Assembly: GCF_030418295.1 (NCBI RefSeq)
Contig: NZ_JAUHQA010000001.1
Location: forward strand, 1,116,001-1,180,000
Reading direction: 5' to 3'
DNA length: 64,000 nt
From: Demequina muriae
Lineage (GTDB): Bacteria > Actinomycetota > Actinomycetes > Actinomycetales > Demequinaceae
Shown here: positions 25,268 to 59,316 of the stretch, piece after piece
Numbering within the stretch: position 1 is the stretch's first letter
Layout: each line of letters starts with the position of its first letter
Program-made: the position numbers and the translations under genes
The notes under the pieces: model-generated
The model's database searches: none
Seen by the model: only the letters and a program-made list of their open reading frames with translations
What the model was told of the DNA's origin: nothing

Positions 25268-25301
25268 CGAAGCAGTTGAGCAGACGACGATGGAGTCAAC
25301 G

Positions 25302-26342
25302 ATGGCGACGATCGAGGATGTGGCCCGCGAGGCGGGCGTCAGCATCTCGACTGTCTCGTACGCCCTGAGCGGCAAGAGGGCCATCAGCGCCACCACCCGC
25401 CAGCGCGTCCAGGACGCCGCCACCAAGTTGAACTACCTCCCCCACGCCTCGGCGCGCATGCTGGCAGCCAACCGCTCTCACATCTTCGCGGTGACGGCGC
25501 CGCTTCACCCCGACACCGACCACAGCGCACACATGACGTTCGCGATGGAGGTCACCAAGGCCGCTCGCGAACGTGACTACGACACGCTGCTGCTGGTGCA
25601 CAAGGACGCACTCGAGGGCATGAAGCGCTCGGCCGCGACCAGCCTCGCCGACGGCATCATCGTGCTCGACGTGGACGCCCACGACGAACGCGCCACTCTC
25701 GCGCGCCAGCTCTCCTGCCCCGCGGTGTTCATCGGCATCCCCGAGGACACCTCCGGCCTGGTGTGCGTCGACCTCGACTTCGAGGCGGCAGCAGCCATGG
25801 CGATCGACCGACTGCTGGACGCCGGCCGCAGGAGCATCGGCCTCATCTCCCACCCCGAAGAGACGCTGGTGCGGGAATCCAACTTCCCCCTGCGCTTCCG
25901 CCACGGCTTCGAGCAGCACGCCGCCGAGCGCGGCATCGACATCGCCGTCGCGAACCCGACCCACCACCGCGCCCACGAGGCCATCGCTGAGCTCCTGGAG
26001 CGCAAGCCCGACCTCGACGCGATCGTGCTCAACACCAACATCGACGTCGCGGGCTCGGTCACGGCAGCGCTCGCGGGCCTGGGCCGATCGGTGCCCGGCG
26101 ACGTCTCCGTGGTGGCCGCAGGCGTCACCTTCTCGACTCTTCGCTTCCCCGTGCCGTTCGACACCATCCCCCTCGATGCGCACGCCTCCTGCTCCGCGGC
26201 GGTCGATATGCTCGCCCGCATCGTGGAGAACGGTGAATCCCCACCGGAGACCACCCTCATCCCGCCCACCTACATCGAGCTCGGCTCGGTCGCGCGCACC
26301 AGCGCGACCCCTGTCGCGCCCGTCACCGCCCCGGCCACATGA
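25302..26342 (+). CDS. LacI-family repressor of the alpha-xyloside locus
   Basis: 346 aa from the ATG at 25302, with GGAG 6 nt upstream; an ATG at 25290 adds four residues. The N-terminal helix-turn-helix is classic (ATIEDVAREAGVSISTVSYALSGKRAIS), then the hinge LNYLPHASARMLA, then a periplasmic-binding-protein-like sensor domain. Three matching operators flank it. The inducer is probably the sugar carried by the adjacent ABC system or a product of the GH31 enzyme. Confidence 0.94.
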   Translation: MATIEDVAREAGVSISTVSYALSGKRAISATTRQRVQDAATKLNYLPHASARMLAANRSHIFAVTAPLHPDTDHSAHMTFAMEVTKAARERDYDTLLLVHKDALEGMKRSAATSLADGIIVLDVDAHDERATLARQLSCPAVFIGIPEDTSGLVCVDLDFEAAAAMAIDRLLDAGRRSIGLISHPEETLVRESNFPLRFRHGFEQHAAERGIDIAVANPTHHRAHEAIAELLERKPDLDAIVLNTNIDVAGSVTAALAGLGRSVPGDVSVVAAGVTFSTLRFPVPFDTIPLDAHASCSAAVDMLARIVENGESPPETTLIPPTYIELGSVARTSATPVAPVTAPAT

Positions 26343-26378
26343 CACCCCCCACCCCGCGCGCTTGACGGCTGCGCCTCG

Positions 26379-26392
26379 TCGAAGCGCTTCGA
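26379..26392. promoter_or_regulatory. LacI-family operator O2
   Basis: A perfect TCGAAGCGCTTCGA palindrome, 68 bp (centre to centre) upstream of O3 and 147 nt before the binding-protein start. A spacing of 68 bp (about 6.5 turns) does not put both sites on one face of the helix unless the DNA is twisted. Confidence 0.85.
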
Positions 26393-26446
26393 CAATCACG
26401 CGGGACCCGCACCACCACAACTGAATACGCACCACGACGTTCACTG

Positions 26447-26460
26447 TCGAAGCGCTTCGC
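26447..26460. promoter_or_regulatory. LacI-family operator O3
   Basis: TCGAAGCGCTTCGC: 12 of the 14 palindromic positions, with the core CGAAGCGCTTCG intact. It lies 79 nt before the binding-protein start. The promoter itself was not resolved. Confidence 0.82.
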
Positions 26461-26538
26461 CAACCCGGGAAGCACGGCAGCCGACCACCCCGCGACGGGC
26501 CACCCCGGTCCCGAGCACCTACAAGGAGGTAGACAAAA

Positions 26539-27864
26539 ATGAGGAACCGATCACGGACCCTCGCGGCGCTGGCCACTGCCGGCGCCCTGACCCTCACGCT
26601 CACCGCGTGCTCATCCGATGACGACGGCGGCTCCGCCGAGACTCCCGCCGACGGCGACTGGTCGGGCGAGACGCTGACCGTCATGCACTTCGAAGGCCAG
26701 GACTCGGCGATGGGCATCGCCTGGGACCGCGCCATCGAGATCTTCGAGGAGGAGACCGGCGCCACCGTCGACCTCCAGCTCACCGCATTCGAGGACCTGC
26801 GCACCTCCGCCGAGCAGCTGTTCGACTCGGGTGATGCCCCCGACGTCGCCGAGTACAACAAGGGCAACGCGACCGCCGGCCAGCTGGCGGCGATCGGCGT
26901 GCTCGAGAACCTCGACGCCGCGTACGAGGAGTACGGCTGGGGCGACATGCTCGCCGACTCCGTCGCGACGACGGCGCAGTACAACGAGGACGGGATCATG
27001 GGCTCGGGCAGCTACTACGGCGTCCCGAACTACGGCGAGTTCACGTTCCTCTACTACAACGAGGACATGTTCACCGAGCACGGCGTCGAGGTCCCCACGA
27101 GCATCGAGGAGGTCGAGGCTGCGGCCCAGACCTTCGCCGATGCGGGCGTCACGCCCTTCGCGGAGTCCGTCCAGGAATACCCGCTGGGGCAGCTCTGGTA
27201 CCAGCTCGCGCTGAGCCAGGCCGACCGTGACTTCGTCAACGCGTACCAGCTCTACACCGAGCCGGTCGACTGGCAGGGTGCGGAGATCAGCTACGCGACG
27301 GAGACCATCGCGGAGTGGGTCGACAACGGCTTCATCTCCTCCGAGGTCACCGGCATGACGGCCGAGGACGCGGGACTCGAGTTCATCAACGGCGAGGTCC
27401 CGATGTTCTACTCGGGCTCCTGGTGGTACGGACGCTTCCTGACCGAGGTCTCTGACTTCGAGATGGGGATCACGAACTGGCCCTCCACCGAGCTCACCCC
27501 GGGCTCGGGCGGCAACATGTGGGTCGTCCCGGTCGAGTCGGAGCAGCCCGAGCTCGCTCGCGTGTTCATCGACATCACGATGCGTCCCGAGATCCAGGCG
27601 CTGCTGGGCGACTCCGGCGGCCTGCCCGTCGCAGCCGACCCTGCTGACATCACCGACGAGGACGCCCAGGCGCTCATCGAGCTGTTCAACGAGGTCAACG
27701 AGCGCGACGGCCTGTCGTTCTACCCCGACTGGCCCACCCCCAACTTCTACGGCGACCTCAACGGTGTGCTGCAGGGGCTGGTGAACGGCGACTTCACGGC
27801 TGAGGAAGCTCAGGCCGAACTCGAGTCCTACTACGAGGACCACGTCGCGGACATCCGCGACTAG
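26539..27864 (+). CDS. Sugar ABC transporter solute-binding lipoprotein (alpha-xyloside locus)
   Basis: 441 aa. Lipobox LTAC with Cys24, acidic linker, then an extracellular family-1 binding fold (VMHFEGQDSAMG, SYYGVPNYGEFTFLYYNEDMF, MFYSGSWWYGRF). AAGGAGG lies 8 nt before the ATG. It is first in the unit SBP - permease - permease - alpha-xylosidase, so the substrate is probably a xyloglucan-derived alpha-xyloside such as isoprimeverose or a longer oligosaccharide. Control is by the LacI protein through O2 and O3. Confidence 0.92.
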   Translation: MRNRSRTLAALATAGALTLTLTACSSDDDGGSAETPADGDWSGETLTVMHFEGQDSAMGIAWDRAIEIFEEETGATVDLQLTAFEDLRTSAEQLFDSGDAPDVAEYNKGNATAGQLAAIGVLENLDAAYEEYGWGDMLADSVATTAQYNEDGIMGSGSYYGVPNYGEFTFLYYNEDMFTEHGVEVPTSIEEVEAAAQTFADAGVTPFAESVQEYPLGQLWYQLALSQADRDFVNAYQLYTEPVDWQGAEISYATETIAEWVDNGFISSEVTGMTAEDAGLEFINGEVPMFYSGSWWYGRFLTEVSDFEMGITNWPSTELTPGSGGNMWVVPVESEQPELARVFIDITMRPEIQALLGDSGGLPVAADPADITDEDAQALIELFNEVNERDGLSFYPDWPTPNFYGDLNGVLQGLVNGDFTAEEAQAELESYYEDHVADIRD

Positions 27865-27879
27865 CCCCTTCCACTCACA

Positions 27880-27913
27880 GGCGCGGGCCGGGCCTCACCG
27901 CCCGGGCCGCGCC
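27880..27913. terminator. Intra-operon stem-loop after the binding-protein gene
   Basis: GGCGCGGGCCGGGC pairs with GCCCGGGCCGCGCC over 14 positions with one mismatch, around CTCACC. It is in the same operon position as the hairpin at 9412-9440. Confidence 0.75.
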
Positions 27914-27927
27914 GGAGAAGGACAATC

Positions 27928-28893
27928 ATGACCTCGACGATGACGCCCAAGCGGCGCAAGCGCATCCACGAACCCGCGCGCATTCCCGAGCGCGGCGGCC
28001 GCAAGCTGGGCTACTGGCTCTACTTCCTGCCCGGCGCCCTCCTGGTGTCGGTCATCATCTTCTACCCGATCGTCCGCAACCTGCGCCTGAGCTTCTTCCA
28101 CTGGCGCGGTGGACGCGCCGAGGAGGAGTTCGCGGGCCTGGACAACTGGGCCGCGCTCTTCCAGGACCAGGAGTACCTGCAGTCGTTCCAGAACATCATT
28201 CTTGTGATCTTCGCGATGGTGATCATCCCGACCTTGCTGGGTCTCGTGATCGCCGCGCTGCTGTTCGACGTCATCGGCCGCCGGTTCGGGGGCAAGCTGT
28301 CGAGCTTCCTGCGCGCCACCTACTACCTTCCCCAGATCCTCCCGATCGCGGTCGCTGGCGTGCTGTTCGGATGGCTCCTGAAGCCCAACTCCGACGGCGT
28401 CGTGAACCAGTTCCTGACCTTCATCACGGGCTCCGAGGTGACCGTGAACTGGCTCGGAGGGTCCTACCCCACCGCCATGGGTGCGGTCATGGTGCTCATG
28501 ATCTGGATCCAGATCGGCTATCCCGTGGTGATCTTCATGGCTGCGCTGCAGCGGGTGGACCCCGAGCTGTACGAGGCCGCCGAGCTCGACGGCGCGAACT
28601 GGTACGAGCGGTTCCGCGCCATCACGCTCGCGCAGATCAAGCCCGAGGTCTTCGTCGTGTCCCTCACCACCACGATCGCGGCCATGAAGGTGTTCGCTCC
28701 CGTGTTCATCCTCACCCAGGGCGGGCCCAACAAGTCCACCTACGTGCCGTCCTTCTACGCGTACAACGAGTTCGTCAACGGCACGGACAAGGGCTACGCG
28801 GCCGCGATCGCCTCGTCGATCACGATCCTCGTCGCGATCGTCGCCATCATCTTCATTCGCGTGCAGAACCGCTCCGAGCGAAAGGACGCGTGA
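27928..28893 (+). CDS. Sugar ABC transporter permease, MalF type
   Basis: 321 aa, six hydrophobic segments after a basic N-terminal tail. EAA loop ELYEAAELDGANWYERFRAI. It is the first permease of the xyloside system, with a GAGAAGGA ribosome site. No ATPase is in the operon, as in the 7.3-10.9 kb system. Confidence 0.94.
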   Translation: MTSTMTPKRRKRIHEPARIPERGGRKLGYWLYFLPGALLVSVIIFYPIVRNLRLSFFHWRGGRAEEEFAGLDNWAALFQDQEYLQSFQNIILVIFAMVIIPTLLGLVIAALLFDVIGRRFGGKLSSFLRATYYLPQILPIAVAGVLFGWLLKPNSDGVVNQFLTFITGSEVTVNWLGGSYPTAMGAVMVLMIWIQIGYPVVIFMAALQRVDPELYEAAELDGANWYERFRAITLAQIKPEVFVVSLTTTIAAMKVFAPVFILTQGGPNKSTYVPSFYAYNEFVNGTDKGYAAAIASSITILVAIVAIIFIRVQNRSERKDA

Positions 28894-28896
28894 CCC

Positions 28897-29826
28897 ATGA
28901 CCACCACGCCTGTCCAGAACGACACGACCCGCGCATCGGCCGGAAGCGGTGAACCCCCGAGCGACGACCAGCTCGTCAAGGCCCGCGGCCGCCGCGGCGG
29001 CCGTCCCCGCACCGCAGCGGAGTGGATCCTCATGCTGCTCGGCGTCCTCGGCGCCGCCATCGTGGTCTTCCCGATCCTGCTGCTGCTCATCAACGCCTTC
29101 AAGTCGCCGTCGGACTACTCGACGTCGAGCCCGCTGGACCTCCCGCGAAGCTTCGACCTCACCGGCATCCAGACGTTCTGGGAGCAGAACAACTTCCCGC
29201 GTGCGCTGTGGAACTCGATCTTCATCTCGACGATGGTCGCGTTCCTCGCGGTCATCCTGTCGGTGCTGAACTCGTTCGCGATCGGCATCGGCCGGGTGCG
29301 CGGTCGCACGTGGATCGTGCTGCTGTTCCTGATGGCCAACCTGATTCCTCAGGAGATGCTGTTCGACCCACTGTTCACGCTGTACGACGACCTGGGGCTG
29401 CTGTCCAACTCGTGGTCCGTGATCATCACGTTCGTGGTGATCCAGTCCGCGTTCGGCACGTACCTGCTGTCGAGCCTGCTGGGCACCTTCCCCAAGGAGA
29501 TCCTCGAGGCGGCCGCCGTCGACGGAGCGAGTCGGTGGCGCATCCTGCGATCGATCATCGTGCCCATCGTCCGGCCCACGCTCTCCGTCCTGATGGTGTT
29601 CTTCTTCATCTGGACGTGGAACGAGTTCCTGCTGCCACTGGCCTTCCTCAACACGTCCGACTCGCTGACCGTCCCGCTCGTGCTCGAACAGCTGAGCGGC
29701 GAGCGTCAGACCGACACCACCACGCTGATCGCCGGAACGCTGATCAGCATCATCCCGACCATCATCTTCTTCCTCATCTTCCAGCGCACGCTGACCCGAG
29801 GAATCACGGCAGGAGCAGTGAAGTAA
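28897..29826 (+). CDS. Sugar ABC transporter permease, MalG type
   Basis: 309 aa, six hydrophobic segments. EAA loop EILEAAAVDGASRWRILRSI, then PIVRPTLS. The N-terminal tail is long and polar (about 40 residues) and contains the window word GCATCGGC in frame as Ala-Ser-Ala (28933). Its stop overlaps the GH31 start by one base (TAATG), so enzyme and transporter are made together. Confidence 0.94.
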   Translation: MTTTPVQNDTTRASAGSGEPPSDDQLVKARGRRGGRPRTAAEWILMLLGVLGAAIVVFPILLLLINAFKSPSDYSTSSPLDLPRSFDLTGIQTFWEQNNFPRALWNSIFISTMVAFLAVILSVLNSFAIGIGRVRGRTWIVLLFLMANLIPQEMLFDPLFTLYDDLGLLSNSWSVIITFVVIQSAFGTYLLSSLLGTFPKEILEAAAVDGASRWRILRSIIVPIVRPTLSVLMVFFFIWTWNEFLLPLAFLNTSDSLTVPLVLEQLSGERQTDTTTLIAGTLISIIPTIIFFLIFQRTLTRGITAGAVK

Positions 29827-32096
29827 TGAAGTTCACCGACGGTTTCTGGCATCTGCGTCCAGGTGTCACGGCCAACTACGCGCAAGAGGCGTACGACATC
29901 GCCCCCACCACCACGCCCGACGGCGACGGGATCGTCGTCCACGCCCCCTCGCAGCGGATCGTGTCCCGCGGCAACGTGCTCAACCGGGCGCTGCTGACGG
30001 TCACGCTGTCCTCGCCCCTCGAGGGCGTGGTCCGGGTGCGGATCGAGCACCATCAGGGCGCGCATCGGTCGCCGGGCTTCGCCCTCGCGACCGAGCCCGG
30101 CGCCGCCACCGTCATGACGGACGATGCGGGGGCCAGCCTGGTCACCGGCGGACTCACCGCGCGCATCGGCGCTGGGGCTCCCTGGGACCTGTCCTTCTCG
30201 CGGGACGGCCGCCGGCTCACCGGTTCCGGGCATAAGTCGGTGGGCCACATGGCCCTCGCGGCCGATGCGCCCGTGGGCGCGGAGCCCGCCGGCATCTCCG
30301 GCTACTCGGAGACCGGGCTCGCCCCCTCGCGAACCTACGTGCACGAGCAGCTCGACCTTGGCGTCGGCGAGCTGATCTACGGGCTCGGCGAACGCTTCGG
30401 AGCGTTCGTCAAGAACGGCCAAGCAATAGACATCTGGAACGCCGACGGCGGCACCAGCTCCGAACTCTCGTACAAGAACGTGCCGTTCTACCTGTCCTCG
30501 CGCGGCTACGGCGTGCTGGTGAACCAGCCCGAGCATGTGTCGTTCGAGGTGGGCTCCGAGGCCGTGGAGCGCGTCCAGTTCTCCACCGCGGGCGAGGCGC
30601 TGGAGTACCTGGTGTTCGACGGCCCCACGCCGCGGGACGTCATCGACCGCTATACGAAGCTGACCGGCCGCCCGCCGGTGGTGCCCGCGTGGTCGTACGG
30701 CCTGTGGCTGTCGACGTCCTTCACCACGGACTACGACGAGGAGACCGTCAACTCGTTCGTGGACGGCATGCGCGACCGCGACATCCCCCTCAGCGTCTTC
30801 CACTTCGACTGCTTCTGGATGCGCGAGTTCAACTGGACCGACCTCGAGTGGGACGCGCGCACCTTCCCCGACCCGGAGGGCATGCTCACGCGTCTGCACG
30901 ACGACAAGGACCTGCGCGTCTGCGTGTGGATCAACCCGTACATCGGCCAGCGCGGCCGCATGTTCGCGGAAGGCGTCGAGAACGGCTACCTCGTCAAGCG
31001 CGCCGACGGCACGGTGTGGCAGTGGGACATGTGGCAGGCCGGCATGGGACTGGTGGACTTCACCAACCCCGACGCCCGCGCGTGGTTCAAGGACCGCCTG
31101 CGCGAGATCATCCGGCAGGGCGTCGACGCGCTCAAGACCGACTTCGGCGAACGCATCCCCACCGACGTGGTGTGGCACGACGGGTCCTCCCCCGAGACCA
31201 TGCACAACCTCTACACGCAGCTGTACAACGAGGCCGTGTGGGAGGTGCTCCTCGAGGAGCGGGGCGAGGGCGAGGCGGTGCTGTTCTCGCGCTCCGCGAC
31301 GGCAGGCGGGCAGACCATGCCCGTCCACTGGGGCGGCGACAACTCGTCGACCTACGTGTCGATGGCGGAGACGCTGCGCGGCGGGCTGTCGCTTGCCTCG
31401 TCCGGCTTCGGCTACTGGAGCCACGACATCGGCGGCTTCGAGGGCACTCCCGACCCGGCCGTGTTCAAGCGGTGGCTCGCGTTCGGCCTGCTGTCGTCGC
31501 ACTCGCGCCTGCACGGCTCGACCTCGTACCGGGTGCCGTGGGCCTTCGACGACGAGGCGGTCCAGGTCACCAAGGCGTTCGCCGAGCTCAAGAACACGCT
31601 GATGCCCTACCTCTACACCGCGGGCGCCGATGCGGCGGCCAGCGGAGTCTCGGTGGCGCGCCCCATGTTCTTCGAGTTCCCGGACGACCCCGCCGTGGGC
31701 TACCTGGATCGCCAGTACATGCTCGGGAACGACCTGCTGATCGCGCCCGTGATGTCAGCGGACGGCGTGGTGGACTTCTACCTGCCCGCGGGCACGTGGA
31801 CGTCGCTGCTGACCGGCGAGAGGGTCGACGGAGGCCGTTGGGTGCGCGAGACGCACGGCTTCGACTCCCTGCCCGTGTACGTGCGGCCCGGCGCGGTCAT
31901 CCCCCGGGGCGCCCGCTCCGACCGTCCCGACTACGACTTCCTCGACGGACTCGTCCTGGACGTCTACCCCGAGGATCACGAGATCGACGCCTCCGTCGAT
32001 GTCGTCACGGCCGAGGGCCGCCGGGTCACGTATCGTGTGACCGGATCGGGCGACTCCGCCACGGCGCCCGATGCGATCGTGCGCGTGCACCGCTGA
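29826..32096 (+). CDS. yicI: Alpha-xylosidase, GH31 (YicI-like)
   Basis: 756 aa, near the usual 770 of the YicI group. It cleaves alpha-xylosidic bonds at the non-reducing end of xyloglucan fragments by retention. The nucleophile is Asp439 in LKTDFGERIP and the acid/base Asp505 in HWGGDNSS; the 66-residue spacing equals that in E. coli YicI (D416/D482). KTDFGE is the alpha-xylosidase form of the GH31 signature. There is no signal peptide, so it acts on imported substrate. The yicI symbol is by similarity only. Confidence 0.93.
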   Translation: MKFTDGFWHLRPGVTANYAQEAYDIAPTTTPDGDGIVVHAPSQRIVSRGNVLNRALLTVTLSSPLEGVVRVRIEHHQGAHRSPGFALATEPGAATVMTDDAGASLVTGGLTARIGAGAPWDLSFSRDGRRLTGSGHKSVGHMALAADAPVGAEPAGISGYSETGLAPSRTYVHEQLDLGVGELIYGLGERFGAFVKNGQAIDIWNADGGTSSELSYKNVPFYLSSRGYGVLVNQPEHVSFEVGSEAVERVQFSTAGEALEYLVFDGPTPRDVIDRYTKLTGRPPVVPAWSYGLWLSTSFTTDYDEETVNSFVDGMRDRDIPLSVFHFDCFWMREFNWTDLEWDARTFPDPEGMLTRLHDDKDLRVCVWINPYIGQRGRMFAEGVENGYLVKRADGTVWQWDMWQAGMGLVDFTNPDARAWFKDRLREIIRQGVDALKTDFGERIPTDVVWHDGSSPETMHNLYTQLYNEAVWEVLLEERGEGEAVLFSRSATAGGQTMPVHWGGDNSSTYVSMAETLRGGLSLASSGFGYWSHDIGGFEGTPDPAVFKRWLAFGLLSSHSRLHGSTSYRVPWAFDDEAVQVTKAFAELKNTLMPYLYTAGADAAASGVSVARPMFFEFPDDPAVGYLDRQYMLGNDLLIAPVMSADGVVDFYLPAGTWTSLLTGERVDGGRWVRETHGFDSLPVYVRPGAVIPRGARSDRPDYDFLDGLVLDVYPEDHEIDASVDVVTAEGRRVTYRVTGSGDSATAPDAIVRVHR

Positions 32097-53702: not shown

Positions 53703-54791
53703 ATGCTCAACATCGGATTCCTGAGCTTCGGGTGGTGGTCTGGCGCTCCCGGCTCACGCGTGCGCACCGCGAGCGAACTCATGCACGACACGATCCGGCT
53801 GGCCGAGGCCGCGGAGGACGCGGCGTTGGACGGCGCGTGGATCCGCATCCACCACTACGAGCAGAACACCTCGTCGCCGTTCCCGCTGCTCGCCGCCATG
53901 GGCGCGCGCACCTCGCGCGTCGAACTCGGCACGGGCGTGATCAACATGCGGTACGAGAACCCGCTGTACATGGCAGAGGCCGCCGGCACCGCGGACCTCA
54001 TCGCGGGCGGCAGGCTTCAGCTCGGGGTCTCGCGGGGATCACCCGAGCCCGCGGCCGATGGTCCGGGCACCTTCGGCTATCCCCTTCCGGTGGGCAAGCG
54101 TCCGGTGGAGGACGCGGCGGAGCGCATCGCGAAGTTCCGCGACGCGATCTCGGGCACGGGGATCGCCGAACCCGGAGCGAACGCCCACGTGCGACCGGGA
54201 ACCAAGTTGGCGATCACCCCGCAGTCCCCGGGGCTGACCAAACGCATCTGGTACGGCGCCGGCGGCGAGGAGTCGGCACGCACGGTGGGCGAACTGGGGA
54301 TGAACCTGATGTCGTCGACCCTGGTGGAAGGCGGCACCGGCGAGCCGCTGGGAGTCATCCAGTCGCGGCAGATCGACGCGTTCCGCTCGGCATGGGCCGA
54401 TGCCCGCCACGAGGGGGTGCCGCGAGTGTCCGTCTCGCGCTCGATCCAGCCGATCGTCGACGACGAGACGGCCCTGTACTTCGGCCCCACCCTCGAGCGC
54501 GACCGCATGGGTGCCAACCGCGACCAGGTGGGCTCGATCGACACCTTCATCGCGACGTTCGGCAAGACCTACGTGGGCGACCTGGACAAGCTCGAGCGTG
54601 AGCTGCGGGACGACGAGGCCGTGATGAGCTCCGACACCCTGCTCGTGACGATCCCCAACCAGCTGGGCGCGGATTTCAACCACCGCACGTTCTTTGCGCT
54701 CAAGGAGCTGCGGGACCGGCTCGCTCCGCACCACACGGGGCCGCACCGCTCTGATTCAAGCAGCGGACTGCGGGGGTTCGAGCGGCACTAG
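53703..54791 (+). CDS. LLM-class flavin-dependent oxidoreductase
   Basis: 362 aa. A luciferase-like TIM barrel: MLNIGFLSFGWW at the start, ELMHDTIRLAEAAEDAALDGAWIR, RVELGTGVINMRYENPLYMAEAAGTADLIAGGRLQLGVSRG split over residues 75-115. It uses FMN or F420; which one cannot be read here. GGAGGG lies 4 nt before the ATG. No linked pathway is obvious. Confidence 0.9.
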   Translation: MLNIGFLSFGWWSGAPGSRVRTASELMHDTIRLAEAAEDAALDGAWIRIHHYEQNTSSPFPLLAAMGARTSRVELGTGVINMRYENPLYMAEAAGTADLIAGGRLQLGVSRGSPEPAADGPGTFGYPLPVGKRPVEDAAERIAKFRDAISGTGIAEPGANAHVRPGTKLAITPQSPGLTKRIWYGAGGEESARTVGELGMNLMSSTLVEGGTGEPLGVIQSRQIDAFRSAWADARHEGVPRVSVSRSIQPIVDDETALYFGPTLERDRMGANRDQVGSIDTFIATFGKTYVGDLDKLERELRDDEAVMSSDTLLVTIPNQLGADFNHRTFFALKELRDRLAPHHTGPHRSDSSSGLRGFERH

Positions 54792-54835
54792 GCGCGATGA
54801 CCCTATGCGTGTCGCGGCCATGCAATCCTCGGGGT

Positions 54836-55354
54836 GTGACCACGCGCCTCCTGCTCATCAGCGACACCCACGTTCCGAAGAAGGCCCGTGCCCTGCAGCC
54901 GCAGGTGTGGAGCCTCATCGACCGGGCCGACATCGTGCTGCACGCGGGCGACTGGGTCGATGAGGCGCTGCTCGACGAGATCGAGAGCCGGGCAACTCGC
55001 CTCGTGGGCGTCGCAGGCAACAACGATGGGCCCGCGCTGTGGCAGCGGCTGGGCGAGGTCGCACGCGTGGAGATCGAGGGCGTGCGGTTCGCCATGATTC
55101 ATGAGACCGGGGATGCCGCGCGACGCGAGCGACGCTGCGATGCGCAGTTCGGGCCCACAAGCGCCGAGCCGGCCGACGTTCTCGTCTTCGGCCACTCGCA
55201 CATTCCTTGGGATTCGACGACACCCGGCGGACTGCGCCTGCTCAATCCCGGCTCGCCCACCGACCGTCGCCGACAGCCCGTGGGAACCGTCATGACGGCA
55301 CTGCTCGACGATGGGATTCTGCGCGACGTGACCCTCGTGCCGACGCCGCGCTGA
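54836..55354 (+). CDS. YfcE/MJ0936-type metallophosphoesterase
   Basis: 172 aa. Metal-binding motifs LLLISDTH, LHAGDW, GVAGNNDG, IHETGD and FGHSH are in the order of calcineurin-like phosphodiesterases. GTG start; AATCCT lies 6 nt upstream (leaderless, off-consensus). An in-frame ATG at 54797 has no better support. Confidence 0.9.
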   Translation: MTTRLLLISDTHVPKKARALQPQVWSLIDRADIVLHAGDWVDEALLDEIESRATRLVGVAGNNDGPALWQRLGEVARVEIEGVRFAMIHETGDAARRERRCDAQFGPTSAEPADVLVFGHSHIPWDSTTPGGLRLLNPGSPTDRRRQPVGTVMTALLDDGILRDVTLVPTPR

Positions 55355-55479
55355 CGACGCAGGCCGGTCCTCAGGAACGGCTTGAGCTACAGCCGCGCGG
55401 AAGCAGTAGTCGAAAGCGAACGCACACGACCGGCAAGTCCGGCTCGTATCCGCGACGATGCGGTCGCCTACGCCCTCGA

Positions 55480-55510
55480 CGCCGGGCCGCCCACCATGGG
55501 CGACCCGGCG
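55480..55510. terminator. Bidirectional hairpin
   Basis: CGCCGGGCCGCCCA pairs with TGGGCGACCCGGCG (14 positions, one mismatch) around CCA. It lies between the convergent phosphoesterase and surface-protein genes. Confidence 0.7.
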
Positions 55511-55538
55511 TTCTCCGTCAGAGGTTCGAGCGCGACCG

Positions 55539-58403
55539 TCAGCCCTGGTCTGCTCCCGCGACCTCACGACGACGTCCCACCAGCACGAGGCCGAGGCCCA
55601 GCACCAGCAGCAGCGCTGCCCCGCCGACCGGACGCAGATCCGCTCCGGTGCTCGACAGCTCGTCGTCGTCTGCGACCGGAGCCTCGACGATGGTGATGCC
55701 CGTGTTGACCGACACGCTGTCGCCTGCGGCCGAGAGCCCATTCACCTGGATCGTGTGCGCACCGAGATCAACGCCCTCAGGCAGCGCGAACATCGCGCTG
55801 AAGGACCCATCCTCGTTCGCGGTCACCTCCCCCAACAGGAAGGGCTCGGACAGCAGCCACACGTCGACGGTCGAGCCGGGAGCGAAGCCCGATCCGCTCA
55901 CGAGCACTGCGCCGTCGCGGTGGACCTCGTCGATGCCGTCGTTCGTGTCGACCCTGACGGGGTCGCCTGCGGCGTCATAGGCGGCGAAGAACACGGTCAC
56001 GCCACCGCCCCTCACGCTCCAGCCGTCGCTCTCGACAACAGTGGTCGTGGAGACGGGCTGGCCATTGACCACGACATCCCCGGCGCCATCGGTGCTGGGA
56101 ACGGCCACGGGGCCGCGCACGGGAGTGACCGTCGCGATCGCCGCGGGATCGCCCGGTCCCGATGCGTTGATTGCGCGCACCGTCGCCTCGTAATCGGTGC
56201 CGTTGGTGAGGCCGTAGACGGTGAACTCCTCGTCGGGGCCCACCGGGGTGGTAGTCCACGTGGCGCCGCCGTCGAGCGAGTACTCGTAGCCCGTGATCTC
56301 GGAGCCGCCATCGACGACGGGCGCCGCGAACGCGAGGGTCACGCTGCGGCTGCCAGGCTCGGCGACCGTGATGGCCGGTGCGTCCGGCGCGGTGAAGGGT
56401 GTCGCCACGTATTCGTTCGACGGCGTCGATGCCCCGGCCTCGTTGATCGCACGGACCTGGACCGTGTACTCGGTGCCGTTGTCGAGCCCCTCGATCACGA
56501 TGGTGCCGTCGTCCTCGGTGGCCGTGTGCCAGGTGGCGCCCCCGTCGAGGGTGTACTCGTAGCCCGTGATCGCCGCACCGCCGTCGCTGGCGGGGTCGGT
56601 GACGTCGAGCGTCAGGGTGCCGTCACCCGGAGTGGCACCGACGATGGTCGGGGCGCCCGCCAGGGCGGCGTCGACAGTGACGACGAAGGTCTCGACGTCG
56701 TTGCCATAGGTGTTGGTCGCCGTGACCGACAGGTCATGGTCGCCCACCGTGGTGGGCGTGCCGTGCAGGCGACCGTCCTCCTCGAGCGTCAGACCCGGCG
56801 GCAGTTCGTCGGCGTCCCAACCCGGCATCGGGGAACCCGTCGCCGTGAGGTCGATGTCGACAGGCACGCCCCACGTGAACGGGCCGACGGTCGTCGTGGT
56901 GATCGCGGGCACCTGACCCGCAGTTCCCGAGAACGTCGAGCCAGCGGAGCCATGCATGTTGGACGCGGTGATCCGGAACGACCACGGACCAGTCTCGGTC
57001 GGCGTGCCAGTGATCGCACCGGTGTCCTCATCCAACGACAGCCCCGCAGGGAGCGCACCGCCCGTGACCTCGAACCTCGGCGACGGGTACCCGGTCGACG
57101 TCACCTGGTCGCTGTAGGGCTCGCCCACCAGCACCTGGCCGAGCGGACCCACGGGCGTGCCCGGGGCAGTCCCCGGCGTCACCGTGGTGGTGGCCGCCTG
57201 AGAGTCACCGAAGTCATTCGTGGCGACCACGCTCACGCTGTAGGCAGTGCCGGAGGTCAGACCGGTGACGGTGCAGCTGGTGTCGGTCCCGGAGCAGTCT
57301 GTGACGTCGCCGCCTGCAGGAGTGACGGTGACCGTGTACTCGGTGATCGCCGAGCCGCCGTCGTTGGCAGGCGCGTCCCACGAGACGGTCGCTTCGCCCA
57401 CACCCGCCGTCGCCGAAAGGTTGGTGACTGACCCGGGGGTGCCAAGGAGCGCGACGGACGAGCTCGCTTCGGCGAGGCCGTCGTATGCCACGTCCGTGCC
57501 CACCGCGAGTGTGCCGTACTCGACGACATAGCCGCTGATCGCGTCGCTGTAGTCGGGGAGGTCGTTCCACAGGCCCGAGAAGCTCCCCCAGTTGGTGACG
57601 ATTCGCGGCTCGTTGCCACCTGCGTTGTTGGGCTCGCCGCCAGACCAGTTCGAGTAGAGCCCTGCATTGTCGAGGAAGTAGCAGCTGCCCTCGGTGAAGT
57701 AGCAGCGAGTGAAGTGCTGACCCGCGAGGGGCCCATCGACCCACTCCCACACGCGAGAGTAGCTGTCATGGTTGAGGATCCCCTGGCCACCCAGCCACAC
57801 GTTCTGTGCGCCGTCGATCCTGCTCGTGATGAGGTTGTTGACCTCGGCGTTCGGCACCGTGGCGAGATACCCCGTCTGGCCAAGATACGAACGGCCCTGC
57901 GCGGCCGCGCGGGCCTGCGTCCATGTGATGGCGCCCGACGGCACGTACTCGTAGAAATGCTCGTTCGACGGGCTGTAGACCACACCGCCCTCGGGACGCG
58001 CGATGATGCCGATCTCCGCATCGGTGCCCTTGGCGGACGCGGGCGTCGTCAGGGTCACTGTCTCGAGCGCCGCATTCACCGCAGTGGTCGTACCCGAGAA
58101 TGCGACTTCCGAGCCAGTCGACGCGTAGCCGTAGTCGAGGCTGGCGCCGGTCCCGCTGAGCGCGACGCTCACGGCACCGACATCGGTCGACACCAGGACG
58201 GAGACGGCCTCCCCCGATGTGCTGGCAGACACGGTCAGTCCCGCCAGCGGCGTGGCCTCACCTGCGACGGCCGATGCCGTGGTGGTCGAGGTCGCAGCCG
58301 TGACGTCCGCGGACGCTGGCGCGGCCACGAGGACGCCGGCGACGACGGCGATAAGGGCGGCTGCAGAGGTGCGGGCAGACAGCGGTGAACGTCGTGACGA
58401 CAA
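55539..58403 (-). CDS. Cell-wall-anchored surface protein with C-type-lectin-like and Fn3 domains
   Basis: 954 aa from a TTG at 58403 (GGGGAG 5 nt upstream). Signal peptide to about residue 32 (APASA). Residues about 140-290 are a C-type-lectin-like domain: FYEYVPSGAITWTQARAAA, LATVPNAEVNN, then GGEPNN and GLWND, which match the Ca/mannose-type EPN and WND motifs. Fn3 or Ig-like domains follow, of the forms GSAITEYTVTV, GAAITGYEYTLDGG and GSEITGYEYSLDGG (last two nearly the same), and a final beta domain. The C-terminus has LSSTG, a hydrophobic helix and GRRRE, a sortase-type anchor of the LPXTG class, off-consensus. It probably binds glycans or is an adhesin. Confidence 0.87.
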   Translation of the reverse strand: MSSRRSPLSARTSAAALIAVVAGVLVAAPASADVTAATSTTTASAVAGEATPLAGLTVSASTSGEAVSVLVSTDVGAVSVALSGTGASLDYGYASTGSEVAFSGTTTAVNAALETVTLTTPASAKGTDAEIGIIARPEGGVVYSPSNEHFYEYVPSGAITWTQARAAAQGRSYLGQTGYLATVPNAEVNNLITSRIDGAQNVWLGGQGILNHDSYSRVWEWVDGPLAGQHFTRCYFTEGSCYFLDNAGLYSNWSGGEPNNAGGNEPRIVTNWGSFSGLWNDLPDYSDAISGYVVEYGTLAVGTDVAYDGLAEASSSVALLGTPGSVTNLSATAGVGEATVSWDAPANDGGSAITEYTVTVTPAGGDVTDCSGTDTSCTVTGLTSGTAYSVSVVATNDFGDSQAATTTVTPGTAPGTPVGPLGQVLVGEPYSDQVTSTGYPSPRFEVTGGALPAGLSLDEDTGAITGTPTETGPWSFRITASNMHGSAGSTFSGTAGQVPAITTTTVGPFTWGVPVDIDLTATGSPMPGWDADELPPGLTLEEDGRLHGTPTTVGDHDLSVTATNTYGNDVETFVVTVDAALAGAPTIVGATPGDGTLTLDVTDPASDGGAAITGYEYTLDGGATWHTATEDDGTIVIEGLDNGTEYTVQVRAINEAGASTPSNEYVATPFTAPDAPAITVAEPGSRSVTLAFAAPVVDGGSEITGYEYSLDGGATWTTTPVGPDEEFTVYGLTNGTDYEATVRAINASGPGDPAAIATVTPVRGPVAVPSTDGAGDVVVNGQPVSTTTVVESDGWSVRGGGVTVFFAAYDAAGDPVRVDTNDGIDEVHRDGAVLVSGSGFAPGSTVDVWLLSEPFLLGEVTANEDGSFSAMFALPEGVDLGAHTIQVNGLSAAGDSVSVNTGITIVEAPVADDDELSSTGADLRPVGGAALLLVLGLGLVLVGRRREVAGADQG

Positions 58404-58635
58404 GGGAGCTCCCGGGGAGATGTGAAGTGGGGCACAGACGACGATTCACGCACGTGCGTGCGTAGTGATTGCAGGTGCTGCCGTCTCGCCTCGCTGATCC
58501 TTCCACAAAGTGAGAAGAATCACATAGCAGTGATGACGCAATTCTCGGCGGGTCTCACAGAAATGGACTGATTTGTCCGCTTTTTTCTTGCGCAGGTCAG
58601 AGATGGGGGCGACAGCGCGTCGACGAGAGGCGGTT

Positions 58636-59316
58636 TCAGGTCAGCGGAACCGTGCCAAGCGACGGCCCGGACAGGATCCGGGGCCGCTTGGGGTCGGCGT
58701 TGTCGACCACCACGAGCGCCTTCTGGCGGGGCGCGACCTCGCGGCGATAGATCAGTTGGCCGTCGAAGTAGCGGCGCTGCACCGGGTCGTCCGGGTCCTC
58801 TTCAAGCCCGTCGCGGGTGACCATGCGGGTGAACCGCACCGAGTACGGCGCCTCCACCCACACCACCGCGTTCCACCACTCAGCGAGGCCGGGGTGCTGC
58901 ATGAACAGCCCGTCGGCGAGCAGCGTCACCTGGTCGCCCACCCCGACCGAGCGGGTGTCGGGCAGCAGCTCGTCAGACTCCAGGTCGTGGTGCCGCAGAG
59001 TGACCACGCGGTCGCCGCCAGGGCCGAGCGGCTTCAACACCTTCTCGATGAACGCCTCATGGTCGAACGAGTCCTCCCAGAAGCCACGCGGGCTCGTGCG
59101 TCCCTGGCGGTACCGGTGGTCGCGCGGGTGGTGGAAGTCGTCCATGCTCACTTCGACCACGTCGCGGCCGCGGCAGCGGAGCTCGGCGCCGAGCTCTTTG
59201 CGCAGCGTGGTCTTGCCAGAGGCATCAGGGCCGTCGATCGCGATCAGCACGGGCGCGCCCTCGGGCCGAGGGAGCGAATCGGCGACGGTGCCGATGACCT
59301 TCTGGCGGCGATCCAT
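58636..59316 (-). CDS. Uridine-kinase-like P-loop protein
   Basis: 226 aa. Walker A IDGPDASGKTTL (residues about 26-37), acceptor region VSMDDFHHPRDHRYRQGRTSPRGFWEDSF typical of uridine kinase/phosphoribulokinase relatives, and LADGLFMQHPGLAEWW. The substrate is unknown. It starts 2 nt after the purQ stop, so it is the third gene of a purS-purQ-kinase unit. Whether it serves nucleotide metabolism is inference. Confidence 0.86.
   Translation of the reverse strand: MDRRQKVIGTVADSLPRPEGAPVLIAIDGPDASGKTTLRKELGAELRCRGRDVVEVSMDDFHHPRDHRYRQGRTSPRGFWEDSFDHEAFIEKVLKPLGPGGDRVVTLRHHDLESDELLPDTRSVGVGDQVTLLADGLFMQHPGLAEWWNAVVWVEAPYSVRFTRMVTRDGLEEDPDDPVQRRYFDGQLIYRREVAPRQKALVVVDNADPKRPRILSGPSLGTVPLT

Follow-up and report, generated by a model that had tools for sequence, protein, structure and literature searches.

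The gene at 58403..55539 on the minus strand of the window, the whole 64,000-nucleotide stretch of Demequina muriae DNA that we analysed, encodes a 954-aa protein that is probably a fibrillar, cell-wall-anchored lectin adhesin of the EPN type. We prefer this predicted glycan-binding function because the protein combines a C-type lectin-like domain (CTLD) fold, an EPN/WND site, an Fn3/Ig-like stalk and a sortase-type C-terminus. In the proposed mechanism, the signal peptide would export the protein, and a class E sortase would probably cut at LSSTG and link the product to peptidoglycan. With its stalk of Fn3 and Ig-like domains, the protein would present one long-loop C-type lectin domain at a distance from the wall. 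A single Ca2+ would most likely be bound by E257, N259, E265, N280 and D281, and through this ion the domain would grip mannose-, glucose- or fucose-type sugars by their equatorial vicinal hydroxyls. These sugars would sit on another cell or on a polysaccharide, and the outcome would be adhesion. Judged by architecture only, the protein has the adhesive-type domain, the stalk domains and the surface anchor that define a fibrillar adhesin.

Inspection of the open reading frames of the window places the start codon, TTG, at 58403, with GGGAG directly upstream. The third-position GC content in the frame of the lectin gene is 0.85, which is typical of coding DNA here, with the pattern mirrored in the antisense frame. 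A promoter scan returned nothing above chance. The initial annotation had given the reading frame (55539-58403) with exact coordinates, to which the minus strand is now added, and the GGEPNN, GLWND, LSSTG, hydrophobic helix and RRRE elements that it had named all occur in the translation. The mannose-type residues that it had proposed are present as EPN at 257-259 and WND at 279-281, joined by E265; its sortase-type end is found as LSSTG at 916-920 followed by the helix and the basic RRRE tail; and its Fn3/Ig-like spacers correspond to three fn3 and two He_PIG domains, all above the Pfam cut-offs. The features of the gene and its product are as follows.

55539..58403, minus strand: complete gene, from the TTG start to the stop codon, 954 aa
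58305..58403, minus strand: signal peptide, residues 1-33, by inspection (basic start, hydrophobic core, ASA-D)
57990..58304, minus strand: N-terminal small beta domain, residues 34-138, kept beside the CTLD in actinobacterial relatives; pLDDT 85.5
57507..57986, minus strand: C-type lectin-like domain, residues 140-299, by phmmer, family profile, AlphaFold2 model, Foldseek and VIA-align
57786..57797, minus strand: WLGG (203-206), counterpart of the WIGL core motif; W203 in 104/105 and G205 in 104/105 aligned domains
57681..57704, minus strand: C234-C241, sole cysteine pair of the CTLD, in the long loop, by alignment
57627..57635, minus strand: EPN (257-259), predicted calcium-site-II/sugar triad, by alignment
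57609..57611, minus strand: E265, further predicted site-II ligand; E in 102/105 aligned domains
57561..57569, minus strand: WND (279-281), by alignment
57195..57428, minus strand: fn3 domain 1 (326-403), by Pfam
56928..57149, minus strand: He_PIG Ig-like domain 1 (419-492), 5.1e-12
56673..56903, minus strand: He_PIG Ig-like domain 2 (501-577), 4.5e-8
56409..56627, minus strand: fn3 domain 2 (593-665), 5e-8
56130..56375, minus strand: fn3 domain 3 (677-758), 7e-10
55659..56126, minus strand: C-terminal Ig-like stretch (760-915), tentative, from a sub-cut-off Invasin_D3 match (0.0063)
55644..55658, minus strand: LSSTG sorting-type motif (916-920), from the translation
55575..55631, minus strand: hydrophobic helix (925-943), from the translation
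55542..55574, minus strand: basic tail RRREVAGADQG (944-954), from the translation

By sequence alone, the assignment of the tip domain to the CTLDs is marginal, and it becomes clear once relatives are added. In a phmmer search with the window domain alone, CD23 (1.4e-4) and mannose-binding protein (2.6e-4) were matched, mainly through the EPN-WND half, and the Pfam model Lectin_C (PF00059) did not match the window protein even at E<=1. A 55-row family profile reached aggrecan at 2.7e-15 and CD23 at 1.2e-14. Prokaryotic proteins matched by PF00059 have the same five ligands as the window domain, and 45 of the 55 alignment members match that model at E<=0.01; however, the window member is too divergent for it and is not among the 45. 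A PF00059 search of the D. muriae genome gave 0 matches, which is uninformative because its control matched in 0/14 genomes. Residues 34-320 were modelled with AlphaFold2 at a mean pLDDT of 93.1 and a pTM of 0.85, and the best Foldseek matches of the model are CTLDs of the mannose receptor (2.6e-7). Aligned with VIA-align, the model superposes on codakine (2vuv) with a Z of 17.5 and an rmsd of 1.5 over 121 residues at 30% identity, and the Z values for CD23, langerin and SP-D are 16.8, 16.3 and 16.2. Calcium-dependent type II antifreeze proteins are also among the top fold matches, with Z up to 16.7. As modelled, the N-terminal tip domain is a clear CTLD. The structure prediction that had been suggested as a check thus returned the C-type lectin fold claimed at the outset, with Z up to 17.5 to solved CTLDs, and not the absence of such a fold that would have spoken against it.

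The alignment places all five site-II residues (E257, N259, E265, N280 and D281) in the window domain, which carries a predicted calcium site II of the mannose (EPN) type. EPN-type lectins of animals include codakine, langerin, SP-D, mannose-binding protein and Mincle. With the animal EPN-type CRDs, the window domain shares the fold (Z 16-17.5), a WIGL-like core motif, EPN and WND; in contrast to them, the protein is bacterial, lacks the canonical disulfides, is predicted to be wall-anchored on a stalk, and has a GP pair (G224, P225) specific to its own family. The canonical C-type disulfide cysteines are absent, and the CTLD contains only C234 and C241, both in the long loop; cysteine occurs at these two columns in 12/105 and 15/105 aligned domains, duplicates included. 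Because the two conserved disulfides of metazoan-type CTLDs are missing, the window domain is not classed as a metazoan-type CRD. Removal of identical domains reduced the 105 aligned domains to 98, and the GP pair, which follows the WxW strand, is invariant in 98/98. The full E-P-N-E-N-D set occurs in 86/98 distinct domains, the window domain included, and Q-P-D-E-N-D in 5/98. The two peptide patterns that found most of the loci lie outside the ligand residues, whereas the tblastn confirmation and the ranking of loci favour EPN-like relatives. The main source of the 98 domains is the 80 top-ranking stretches out of 262 confirmed ones; because similarity to EPN seeds set the ranking, EPN is over-represented among the 98. 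As described in the part of the Mincle study consulted, the sugar site of Mincle consists of EPN (E168, N170), E176 and WND (N192, D193) (PMC7618208); the spacing of 8 between E168 and E176 equals that between E257 and E265.

A wider alignment was made by adding loci from further genome searches, and its 268 rows were reduced to 153 distinct domains (L004-L246) by dropping identical rows and those covering <75% of the model. Three of the 153 (RPD, EPT and QPG) fall outside the two-by-two table. The triad ends of the other 150 prokaryotic domains are EPN in 132, QPD in 14, EPD in 3 and QPN in 1, and the EPN:QPD ratio in this table is not a census because 5/15 rows of a second profile were QPD. 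When the tree is built with the triad columns removed, the triad states need 15 changes; for EPN versus QPD, the best tree requires 11 changes, five of which are forced by well-supported branches. In five pairs on supported branches, both triad positions move together (mean 4.8/5, sign test p 0.0625), and an earlier run with 98 rows had four pairs with a mean concordance of 4.0 (p 0.125). Fisher's p for the coupling of EPN and QPD is 5.6e-16, a statistic that ignores relatedness. Coupled switching of both triad ends, as it appears in these alignments, is suggestive only. Because EPN and QPD are the mannose- and galactose-type triads of animals, such switching is expected if the site reads sugars. 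The pattern speaks for the prokaryotic family and not for the window protein in particular.

These results lead us to a broader and more tentative proposal, which could quite possibly be correct: true calcium-dependent C-type lectins may form a large, disulfide-poor branch in bacteria and some archaea, one that has repeatedly switched specificity between EPN (mannose) and QPD (galactose), with both triad positions moving together as in animals, and of which the Demequina protein would be a wall-anchored EPN member. If true, a lectin family usually regarded as animal would have a functional arm in prokaryotes. The long-loop calcium-type CTLD occurs in records of Bacteroidota, Actinomycetota, Myxococcota, Bacillota, Pseudomonadota, Chloroflexota and archaea, as well as in the phylum group of Limnoglobus, and the carriers are, according to record titles, largely environmental organisms. 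In the portion of a snake-venom review available to us, parasitic bacteria seem to have acquired CTLDs by transfer (PMC6468738); the phylum spread and the mostly environmental carriers run against that view as stated there. A literature search, with subscription journals mostly outside its scope, returned no titles or abstract openings describing a bacterial family of EPN/QPD-type CTLDs. Several genomes of two phyla contain many CTLD matches each (9, 12 and 10 stretches in G850, G882 and G969; 9 and 10 in G704 and G775), and these numbers suggest local expansions.

The sortase classes of the genome had also been named as a point to check. Three sortases exceed Pfam's cut-off, one of class E (NF033747, 244 bits, cut-off 160) and two of class F or F-like; of these last, one scores 175.3 bits against a cut-off of 166 and the F-like one scores 131.4 bits, below the NCBIfam cut-off of 166. 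Class E sortases use LAXTG according to the text seen of PMC5148588, from which the LSSTG of the window protein departs; LAATG followed by a helix and basic residues ends the relatives L010, L014, L015 and L016 (the ORF of L014 runs to its contig end), and LPITG is present at the terminus of L029. In the actinobacterial ORFs L013, L037 and L062, which end inside their loci, no sorting-type end was found. The TIGR01167 search of the genome, whose control matched all 14 genomes at E<=1, served only for choosing candidate loci, and at 3/8 LPXTG_anchor-selected loci (L111-L118) we found LAETG, LSETG and LSSTG ends with a helix and basic residues. Given the LAATG ends of relatives and the L[SA]xTG ends at three other loci of the genome, the LSSTG motif of the window protein is probably read by the class E sortase. 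Each of the two class F or F-like sortase genes is directly preceded by a gene whose product looks secreted, has a C-terminal helix and a basic tail and lacks an LAxTG motif (334-1167 and 1252-1929 in L002; 2-1183 and 1276-1944 in L003), and these proteins are perhaps dedicated substrates.

On one side, the lectin gene is flanked by a luciferase-like gene (53703-54791) and a metallophosphatase gene (54797-55354), and on the other by a kinase-like gene (58636-59316) followed by purQ and purS, both named by eye. In a genome of the same genus (G033, locus L155), a lectin gene of this kind also lies by purQ-purS with the kinase between, and in another genus of the family (G046, L154) such a gene adjoins purQ-purS and is flanked at its other end by the luciferase-like gene. 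The constant neighbours of the lectin gene are purine genes. The five congeners examined that lack the lectin (L149-L153) all have other genes in this interval, and one such congener, G014, has a purQ that is 98% and a kinase that is 96% identical to those of the window. The lectin therefore belongs to the accessory genes and occupies a site that varies among Demequina genomes. This interval, 55355-58635 in the window, carries the lectin in three genomes and other genes in five (4933-8156 in L149, 4579-8117 in L150, 5904-7871 in L151, 5284-7440 in L152 and 4731-7954 in L153); named by eye, the replacement genes are ABC transporter, PadR-like regulator, ASCH-like and reductase-like genes. The lectin is found in 2/44 Demequina genomes, in 4/99 relatives searched (window included, one being a partial 31% match) and in 15/396 genomes sampled across the phylum, again counting the window. 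The domain of L010 is identical to that of L005 in G046, and the domain of L012 to that of L006 in G033. A phage origin was rejected because there was no lectin match in 50,697 phage records and 0/38 pattern-matched stretches of viral contigs encode a relative. Only three plasmid records had matches, at 29-37% identity.

In place of sugar, a CTLD whose calcium site is intact can bind ice or protein, and the window domain might keep its calcium and, like the CTLDs of CD23 and type II antifreeze proteins, recognise a ligand such as ice, a mineral or a protein. Sugar binding does not follow from the calcium-site residues alone, and both CD23 (Z 16.8) and the calcium-dependent antifreeze proteins (16.7) stand among the top fold matches. 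However, the prokaryotic triads switch between exactly EPN and QPD, at both ends together, and a purely structural calcium site would have no evident need for such switching; a ligand other than sugar appears to us fairly unlikely. That the protein is instead the hypervariable display protein of a diversity-generating retroelement (DGR) is hardly credible. The broad CLec fold is common to DGR variable proteins according to the text at hand from PMC6328139, but the examples named there (Mtd, TvpA and TaqVP) belong to the formylglycine-generating-enzyme subtype, whereas the window domain matches canonical long-loop lectins. Furthermore, the PF00078 reverse transcriptase model had 0 matches in the genome, with a control that matched in 3/14 genomes, and this absence largely refutes a DGR origin.

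Other readings concern the attachment and the role of the sugar-binding adhesin that we favour. If LSSTG did not function as a sorting signal, the protein would be retained in the membrane or shed and not linked by sortase; the published class E motif, given as LAXTG in the portion of PMC5148588 cited above, and the lack of a match between the protein and the LPXTG_anchor model are consistent with this. Yet L[SA]xTG followed by a helix and basic residues ends three other loci of the genome, one of them with the identical LSSTG, and relatives carry LAATG, so that we regard a non-functional signal as unlikely. The initial annotation had connected the protein with xyloglucan genes, and the protein might accordingly capture polysaccharide for a plant xyloglucan utilisation locus. 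The window does contain, at 25290-32096, genes for LacI, a solute-binding protein, two permeases and an alpha-xylosidase (PRK10658, 1140 bits), which likely form one operon and are the only such genes seen. However, this cluster lies 23.4 kb from the lectin, the gap is filled with unrelated genes, and the lectin's constant neighbours are the purine genes named above. The alpha-xylosidase is near-universal in the genus, being found at E<=1e-100 in 37/44 congeners against 2/44 for the lectin, and its presence therefore says nothing about the lectin. Neither linkage nor co-occurrence supports the proposed connection, which was rejected on these grounds, and a role in xyloglucan capture is very unlikely.

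The fold of the putative adhesin's tip is already known, many prokaryotic members are already covered by Pfam, and the window protein is an ordinary accessory surface protein. In the available portions of two papers on Gram-positive fibrillar adhesins, these proteins have an N-terminal adhesive domain, stalk domains and a C-terminal sortase anchor (PMC8286594, PMC9210967), and the window protein has the same layout. Those same portions name a single C-type lectin relative among the adhesive domains, Intimin_C (PMC8286594, PMC9210967). The CTLDs of intimin and invasin resemble the window CTLD in belonging to bacterial adhesins and in their broad fold; in contrast, their long loop is replaced by a helix or missing, as far as the text seen of PMC6468738 describes it, and intimin is without the usual long loop, whereas the predicted tip of the window protein is a long-loop calcium-type CTLD. 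Because the loop is replaced or missing, intimin and invasin lack an EPN-type site in that account. If the site works, the window domain would be a C-type lectin that has almost no cysteines and is easy to express, and a natural EPN/QPD series for probing sugar specificity would be available in the prokaryotic family.

The beta domain of 105 residues before the CTLD is found in actinobacterial relatives and in one Paceibacterota record. A Foldseek search with this domain alone gave no match at E<=0.001, and the best was to part of human B4GALNT1 (3.3e-3), a result that neither assigns a known fold to the domain nor rules one out. In the AlphaFold2 model, a further strand after the CTLD, at residues 311-319, may pack back on the beta domain, and the CTLD may therefore be an insertion within it.
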